A stretch of DNA of 64,000 bases, from contig NZ_ATUT01000001.1 in the NCBI RefSeq assembly GCF_000420345.1, forward strand, positions 248,001-312,000, read 5' to 3'. Below the pieces are notes generated by a model. The model was not told the origin of the DNA. It worked only from the letters and a program-made list of their open reading frames with translations, and made no database searches. Position 1 is the stretch's first letter. Every line of letters begins with the position of its first letter. Shown piece by piece: positions 1,434-2,533 of the stretch. A program made the position numbers and the translations under genes. The DNA comes from Faecalicoccus pleomorphus DSM 20574. Lineage in GTDB: Bacteria > Bacillota_I > Bacilli_A > Erysipelotrichales > Erysipelotrichaceae.

Positions 1434-2057
1434 ATGAATTTTTTATATTTGATTCTTTGTATTTTACTGGGCTATCTTTTAGGTTCCATTCCCTTCGCAT
1501 TGGTCATTGGCAAGGTTTTCTATAAAACCGATATTCGCCAATACGGGTCTGGAAACTTAGGTGGTACCAATGCCGGACGTGTATTAGGAAGAAATGCCGG
1601 AATTTCCGTTATTGCCTGTGATATTTTAAAGGTTGTATTGGCCATGGGCCTAGCAAGCTTGATCGACGGCTCCTGCAGCATCTGGTGCGGTGTCGCTTGT
1701 TGTATCGGACACTGTTATCCTATATTTGCGCACTTTAAGGGTGGAAAAGCAGTCAGTACGATGTTTGGTTTCTTAGTTTCCTTATGGTTTTTTACTTTCC
1801 ATGATATCAGCTATGCCCTGGTTCCATTAGGAATGTTTTTAATCATTCTCTTTATTTTTAAATATGTATCGCTGGCCAGCATTTGTGCATCGATTGCCAG
1901 CTGTATGTATATCAGTGCTCGCGTTCTTTCATTAGCGCTGAATCCTATTTTTATCGTTTTAGCTTCATGGATTATGATGTTTTTGATTATCTATCGCCAT
2001 CGTTCCAATATTCAAAAGATTATGAACGCAACGGAAAATAAAATTTCCTGGCTCTAA
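1434..2057 (+). CDS. plsY: glycerol-3-phosphate acyltransferase PlsY
   Basis: Transfers the acyl group of acyl-phosphate to sn-glycerol-3-phosphate, making lysophosphatidate, the first step of phospholipid synthesis in most Gram-positives; it acts in the membrane. At 207 residues it has the family's normal length, with about five hydrophobic segments. The three conserved loops are visible: GSIPFALVIGK near residue 17, GSGNLGGTNAGRVLG near 38, and the later GHCYPIFAHFKGGKAV around 96-111. It has its own promoter and strong Shine-Dalgarno sequence. A hairpin directly downstream (2085-2119) acts as its terminator and also hides the start of the next gene. Confidence 0.93.
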   Translation: MNFLYLILCILLGYLLGSIPFALVIGKVFYKTDIRQYGSGNLGGTNAGRVLGRNAGISVIACDILKVVLAMGLASLIDGSCSIWCGVACCIGHCYPIFAHFKGGKAVSTMFGFLVSLWFFTFHDISYALVPLGMFLIILFIFKYVSLASICASIASCMYISARVLSLALNPIFIVLASWIMMFLIIYRHRSNIQKIMNATENKISWL

Positions 2058-2084: not shown

Positions 2085-2119
2085 AACACTTCATTACTCT
2101 AAGAATGAGGTGTTTTTTT
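2085..2119 (+). terminator. plsY intrinsic terminator containing the comK ribosome binding site
   Basis: An 11-bp stem pairs 2085-2095 with 2104-2114 (one G-U pair) around an 8-base loop and is followed by a run of T ending at 2119. The 3' arm contains GAGGTG (2107-2112), the only plausible Shine-Dalgarno sequence for the ATG at 2120, which comes right after the U-tract. One element can therefore end the plsY transcript and hide the comK start in any read-through RNA. Confidence 0.8.
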
Positions 2120-2533
2120 ATGACAAACTATCTATATTACAATTATGCGAATAGTTCTGTTTGTAAGGTCGCAGAAGAACAAATAGAATATGAGCCTTGC
2201 TCCAGCGTTCATCGTTATTTTGACAAGGAATGCCTACGTCATGGTTCCACTTTAAAAGGGCGAAAAACGGCCTATGCGAACCAGATGAACCAAAAACAGT
2301 ATATTCCTGTCATTGTTCAGGAAAATCCGCATTGTATCTTTTTTCCAATCAAACCTTTAGATGATCCAAACAACATATGGATTTGTTATGAAAAGATTGA
2401 TTTTGTGACCTACAACAAAAAAACATGTACGATCCATTTTAAAGATCATACATGTTTAGGGTGTAAAGAGCTGCATCGTGTTCAAAAACAGATGCGTCAA
2501 ATATTTCGTTATTTAAGACGTTTGGATGTCTAA
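2120..2533 (+). CDS. comK: ComK-family competence transcription factor (short)
   Basis: A 137-residue protein that matches the core of ComK, the DNA-binding activator of late competence genes in Bacillus. The recognisable stretch is HGSTLKGRKTAYANQMNQ (compare the GSSYEGRKAGT block of ComK), then a CIFFPIKPLDDPNNIWICYE block (compare YFFPT...CAWISH), a short beta segment, and a basic C-terminus with RVQKQMRQIFRYLRRL. It is shorter than Bacillus ComK (about 190 residues), mainly at both ends. An ATG at 2105 is in frame but falls inside the terminator stem, so 2120 is preferred. It overlaps the convergent RidA-like gene by 4 bases. Assignment is by motif recall only. Confidence 0.72.
   Translation: MTNYLYYNYANSSVCKVAEEQIEYEPCSSVHRYFDKECLRHGSTLKGRKTAYANQMNQKQYIPVIVQENPHCIFFPIKPLDDPNNIWICYEKIDFVTYNKKTCTIHFKDHTCLGCKELHRVQKQMRQIFRYLRRLDV

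Follow-up and report, generated by a model that had tools for sequence, protein, structure and literature searches.

The window analysed here, a stretch of 64,000 nucleotides, covers positions 248001-312000 of contig 1 of the Faecalicoccus pleomorphus genome (1.99 Mb; Faecalicoccus is a genus of gut bacteria in the family Erysipelotrichaceae) and carries, directly behind plsY, a gene for a homologue of the competence regulator ComK whose profile match lies well above the family cut-off (Table 1). The stop codon of plsY is separated from comK by 62 nt in the window and by 45-62 nt across Faecalicoccus. In a genus-level ComK alignment search the matches were Faecalicoccus acidiformans DSM 26963 and an uncultured Faecalicoccus, with Faecalitalea cylindroides as the second-nearest named relative.

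Table 1. Features of the plsY-comK region, in window coordinates
Feature	Position	Strand	Evidence	Remark
plsY (glycerol-3-phosphate acyltransferase)	1434..2057	+	PF02660, E 2.4e-48	upstream of and co-directional with comK
Hairpin 5' arm, AACACTTCATT	2085..2095	+	predicted fold; compensatory changes within the genus	extendable by 2082-2084
Putative -10 hexamer TACTCT, top of the hairpin	2095..2100	+	alignment A2; enrichment over other terminator loops	weak: TANNNT only
Hairpin 3' arm, AATGAGGTGTT	2104..2114	+	predicted fold	
comK Shine-Dalgarno sequence GAGGTG	2107..2112	+	sequence	entirely within the 3' arm
T tract, 7 T; terminator U tract and SD-to-ATG spacer	2113..2119	+	sequence; T run invariant in 17 elements	
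comK, competence regulator homologue, 137 aa	2120..2533	+	PF06338, E 4.7e-14, 52.9 bits (cut-off 22.3)	

A competence regulon seems plausible in this organism since the genome also encodes comGA, dprA and a ComEC homologue. The last is a divergent ComEC (C1:224019-224711, minus strand; TIGR00361, E 1.9e-40); a search with the Pfam model PF03772 did not find ComEC in the family members searched, except for one match below the cut-off, and the idea that ComEC is absent was dropped once TIGR00361 detected the homologue. Upstream of comGA there is one exact K-box (AAAAN5TTTT), AAAACATCATTTT (contig C9, ~286-376, locus L141), and the comGA ATG has no SD before it, which is a possible leaderless start.

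Positions 2082-2122 read AAG AACACTTCATT ACTCTAAG AATGAGGTGTT TTTTT ATG, where the ATG (2120-2122) is the comK start codon and the T run ends at the preceding base. All 11 pairs of the stem form, from 2085-2114 through 2095-2104 and with one G-U pair among them, and three extra pairs are possible between 2082-2084 and 2115-2117. Sequence and predicted fold (11 bp, -11.1 kcal/mol, with a centroid that is hairpin 2085-2095/2104-2114 alone) agree with the initial annotation, which described an 11-bp stem and a U tract ending one base before the comK ATG and placed the sole Shine-Dalgarno (SD) sequence inside the 3' arm. Indeed, GAGGTG, 7 nt upstream of the ATG, is the one SD seen for comK, and no second one was found. 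An in-frame ATG at 2105, within the 3' arm, is possible as the comK start but is not conserved in relatives and is not favoured.

Taking as the sequence criterion of an intrinsic terminator a stable stem of ~7 bp or more with a U-rich tract immediately after it, the hairpin at 2085-2114 is a predicted member of this class. A simple scan for terminators missed it, which carries no weight against the hairpin, given its AT-rich stem and arms that extend into the T tract. In a read-through RNA the SD has a predicted probability of being unpaired of 0.00 in the window, and plsY is the predicted source of the read-through that the hairpin would stop. The earlier claim that one hairpin would both terminate plsY-derived RNA and hide the comK start site is thus borne out at the level of prediction, and the comparative data described below show selection on it.

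The arrangement of hairpin, SD and T tract is not due to chance. Dinucleotide shuffling of the 62 nt between plsY and comK gave a comparable hairpin (-11 kcal/mol or lower) with an adjoining T tract in 0 of 5000 trials, and within 452 kb of the same genome, where a simple ORF picker gave ~447 ORFs, the same arrangement was seen at approximately one other, an ORF with a DUF3791 domain.

This other clear case is a 67-aa gene at C2:27484 (locus L135, ~7484), which lies behind a vanY-like gene, so named from sequence motifs and not from a search. Its hairpin, AAAACATCCTC...GGAGGATGTTTTT, has the SD within its 3' arm and is followed by a U tract abutting the ATG. In a gene for a DeoR-type regulator (C4:4368, minus strand, locus L137) a 9-bp hairpin that lacks a U tract, CTCCTGCAG-ATAGG-CTGCAGGAG, overlaps the SD.

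ComK homologues were drawn from the family and the order, and their upstream DNA was scored by a script for a hairpin, an SD within its 3' arm and a U tract adjoining the ATG. The element is present at 17 comK loci in nine genera: all four Faecalicoccus, all five members of genus g2, both of g18, one of the five of g50, and one species each of g14, g51, g23, g54 and g30. Since the genes upstream of these elements differ (12 have plsY, 4 a RidA-like gene and 1 an unrelated gene), the element belongs to comK and not to plsY. The SD lies within the 3' arm in 17/17, and is of the GGGG type in L030 and L074. Aligning the plsY-comK junction in relatives, as had been proposed, revealed compensatory stem changes. 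Across the stems of L008, L063, L007 and L009, 97.9% of cells are paired and 6 of 12 pairs have changed on both sides, with a covariation score of 0.736 vs. 0.042-0.347 when the alignment is slid; the Faecalicoccus arms are 100% paired, with 3 of 14 pairs changed on both sides. That the stem sequences differ and the pairing is kept by compensatory changes means that selection acts on RNA pairing rather than on an operator sequence. On the ComK tree the element needs 6 changes by parsimony (bootstrap range 5-7), at least 2 of which are forced, so some of its gains or losses were independent. Judged from these alignments, the element is maintained across several genera during turnover of the stem sequence.

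The top of the hairpin also resembles a promoter -10 element. The window hexamer, TACTCT, matches TATAAT at only 3 of 6 positions. In alignment A2, TANNNT occupies one column in 13 sequences (TACTCT in the window, then TAAAAT, TAGAAT, TAAAAT, TATGAT, TACGAT, TATAAT, TACGAT, TACAAT, TACAAT, TATAAT, TACTAT and TATTCT), with the homologous hexamer being TAAAAT, TAGAAT and TAAAAT in the three other Faecalicoccus and TATAAT or TACAAT in other genera. An exact TATAAT is found in the loops of L030 and L074, in their own register, and also in L008/L063 while the stems change; in alignment A4 the loop keeps TAnnAT, columns T16, A17, A20 and T21 being invariant and the stems variable. The loop of L105 lacks a -10, and that of L019 has only a weak one.

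To put these hexamers in perspective, 265 ordinary terminators were taken from these genomes as controls and scored in the same way for TANNNT overlapping the loop. A match of at least 5/6 to TATAAT occurs in 10/17 elements vs. 9/265 ordinary terminators, and a 6/6 match in 4/17 vs. 0/265, figures to be read with the facts that AT-rich loops favour TANNNT hexamers and that the 17 elements are phylogenetically related. When each genus counts once and the controls are AT-rich, the enrichment at 5/6 or better persists (Fisher p ~9e-4), and that of exact TATAAT, counted by genus, is marginal (p 0.04). No -35 is recognisable in the elements at 16-18 nt (the best reach 1-4/6), and outside the elements comK genes showed no general tendency to carry a -10 at 18-25 nt before the ATG (0.11 per locus vs. 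0.15 in control genes).

The distance from the end of the -10-like hexamer to the SD is 6-7 nt in 11/15 elements and 9-11 nt in the other four. With this spacing the start site is expected to fall on the SD or immediately ahead of it, and we predict from the position of the hexamer that comK transcription begins at the SD or 1-3 nt before it, at about 2104-2107. If the RNA begins at 2105-2107, the predicted probability that the window SD is unpaired rises from 0.00 to 0.57. In long upstream RNA the corresponding value is at most 0.13 in the 15 elements computed; in short RNA starting 5-7 nt past the -10 it is predicted to reach 0.1-0.9 in most relatives, the SD remaining mostly paired in the predicted short mRNAs of L074 and L061 (0.03-0.15; L074 0.03). 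A comK transcript starting downstream of 2095, which the initial annotation had set against its own interpretation, is in this way suggested, as a prediction from the conserved -10-like loop hexamer with the SD left free.

Seven plsY-comK loci are without the element. A separate hairpin and T tract right after plsY is clear in 5/7 (L005/L065 of Faecalitalea, L010/L066 and L011); in L013 it lies slightly further from plsY, and in L015 there is T-rich hairpin sequence between the genes. Loss of the stem with retention of the SD, the other observation that the initial annotation had named as counting against it, occurs in Faecalitalea L005/L065 and also in L013 and L015. At 6/7 of these unmerged loci TCAC-N10-(TACAAT, TATTAT, TATCAT, TAAGAT or TTGAAT) is located near comK, downstream of the plsY terminator, and the merged loci L007, L008, L009 and L012 have CAC-N10-TANNNT in the same register, where CAC also complements the SD. 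The gap from TCAC to the hexamer peaks at 10, with 8 loci vs. 0-2 at other gaps. The simplest reading of this comparison seems to be that comK has its own promoter throughout the clade, and that in some genera promoter, ribosome binding site (RBS) and terminator have merged into one sequence.

CAC thus recurs exactly 10 nt before a -10-like hexamer (L005, L065, L010, L066, L013, L015, L007, L008, L009 and L012), and at that spacing it is not known as a sigma-A element. In L010 and L066 (genus g22), in the ~80 nt upstream of comK, the comK start lies ~7 nt after TATTAT/TATCAT and no SD is present; the comK mRNA of these loci may be leaderless because there is no SD before the likely ATG. Both also have an additional in-frame ATG directly behind the plsY terminator, again without an SD.

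We estimate a probability of roughly 0.6 that the comK promoter is nested in the terminator and that the region insulates comK as a nested terminator, RBS and promoter. Transcription from plsY would form the whole hairpin and mostly stop in the U tract, and RNA that leaks through would keep the SD locked in the 3' arm. From the comK promoter, whose -10 would lie in the loop, RNA polymerase would start ~7 nt downstream, on the SD or immediately ahead of it, so that comK's own mRNA would lack the 5' arm, could form no terminator and would expose its SD. ComK would then be expressed only upon firing of its own promoter, which is probably activator-dependent because no -35 is recognisable. What we infer is terminator activity of the hairpin, a start site within the 3' arm, exclusive use of the nested promoter and silence of plsY-derived RNA for comK. 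The enrichment of the loop hexamers speaks for the nested promoter; the missing -35 and the weak hexamer of the window speak against it.

The first alternative is a conditional attenuator acting on transcription and translation alike. Here comK would be made from plsY read-through whenever the hairpin is unfolded, be it by an antiterminator, by a protein, by temperature or by a ribosome stalled at the plsY stop. Selection on hairpin, SD and U tract agrees with this explanation, and in plsY-type loci the hairpin begins ~8-27 nt past the plsY stop, which in some of them lies inside or close to the stretch that a terminating ribosome covers. However, a conserved leader or alternative pairing is not seen in the gap of 45-62 nt, the element persists where a different gene lies upstream, at 58-150 nt, comK of unmerged relatives has a promoter-like site of its own, and the loop -10 is left unexplained. 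We consider it unlikely, if the foremost of the alternatives. A riboswitch or protein-dependent attenuator in particular is not supported, as the genus shows no conserved leader with a mutually exclusive antiterminator or aptamer in that gap; a riboswitch or sRNA was rejected after an Rfam search of the locus at a permissive threshold returned sub-threshold matches only (SpF11 sRNA, 27.1 bits vs. 54). The proposal of the initial annotation that comK is kept off and could be opened by an antiterminator, a protein or a temperature shift is not supported, given the short gap, the lack of a conserved alternative fold or leader and the lack of an Rfam family above threshold; insulation is favoured over this less likely reading.

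It could also be that an ordinary plsY terminator simply abuts comK, with its purine-rich 3' arm borrowed as an SD and no further regulatory role. Intergenic regions are short, terminator arms can resemble an SD, and the DUF3791 gene at C2:27484 shares the arrangement in the same genome. Such compaction would not readily account for an arrangement found at ~1/450 other genes vs. 17 comK loci in nine genera with unrelated upstream genes, nor for the SD spacing and loop hexamer being kept as the stems change, and we regard it as improbable, next in order after the attenuator. Lastly, the inverted repeat might serve as an operator in the DNA, bound by a dimeric regulator such as ComK itself, rather than as an RNA hairpin. 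Its place at the start of a regulator gene and the autoregulation of B. subtilis ComK could suggest this. We consider it very improbable and rejected it, since the arms covary, differing between species with pairing kept, including G-U pairs that an operator would not need, and since the exact K-box AAAAN5TTTT is absent within 150 nt upstream of all 17 comK genes, whereas comGA of the same genome has one.

Insulation by a nested terminator, RBS and promoter would make sense for such a gene. ComK of B. subtilis feeds back on its own gene, and a ComK-like self-activating regulator could be set off by stray transcription. A compact block at both transcription and translation, with the promoter of the gene itself left free, would explain how comK can lie directly behind an active housekeeping gene, and it would also mean that plsY-comK read-through RNA need not produce ComK. 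With this element, the terminator-plus-RBS device predicted in 2010 (PMC2965389) would have a candidate in nature, and its design for insulating genes is easy to test. We see an even chance that the fuller description applies, namely a triple overlap in one 40-bp sequence of the upstream gene's terminator, an RBS lock on read-through RNA and a loop-borne -10 promoter of a master regulator, with an mRNA that begins at its own SD, kept in several genera and perhaps guarding at least one other gene (DUF3791).

Among known systems, a looser parallel is the E. coli frd/ampC junction. There the promoter of ampC precedes the terminator, which its RNA therefore traverses, and the ampC RBS is outside the hairpin, unlike the arrangement proposed for comK. 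What the two would share is a terminator that ends the upstream operon, also acts as a control element for the gene behind it and overlaps the promoter of that gene (the frd terminator/ampC attenuator overlap of Grundstrom and Jaurin, 1982, cited in PMC11838884). Closer to the present case, Naville and Gautheret (2010) predicted bifunctional terminator/RBS-sequestering attenuators as a possible class, with no demonstrated example at that time (PMC2965389). As in that class, a single terminator hairpin would also sequester the RBS at comK; that class concerns regulated attenuation, whereas the comparison of comK loci favours insulation by an element with a nested promoter.

In IS10/Tn10 and IS200 the RBS is occluded in outside transcripts, and we know of no case among them where terminator and RBS hairpin form one 40-nt element with a -10 in the loop. 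Like comK in our reading, their genes are shielded from read-through, at two levels for Tn10; unlike comK, these are transposases of mobile elements. This protection from external promoters is attributed to Davis, Simons and Kleckner (1985) and Beuzon (1999), both cited in PMC2965389, where 5' terminators are described as keeping an IS from being expressed when it has inserted into a transcribed region. A further likeness is offered by T4 late genes (I-TevI, segB, soc and e, together with mobE of Aeh1), in which a hairpin hides the RBS in long upstream transcripts and the gene's own promoter yields an RNA too short for the inhibitory hairpin and hence translatable (PMC2988022). As for I-TevI, the comK SD would be paired in the longer transcript, and its own promoter, predicted here, would drop the 5' arm. 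T4 differs in that these are phage genes with late promoters and the hairpin, as reviewed there, is not described as an intrinsic terminator with a U tract (PMC2988022), whereas the comK hairpin is predicted to be both and precedes a chromosomal regulator. By analogy with these systems, we infer that the comK element works like the RBS-hiding hairpins of T4 combined with a terminator, and that it probably serves as insulation in the manner of T4 I-TevI or IS10 rather than as an off-switch that needs an antiterminator.
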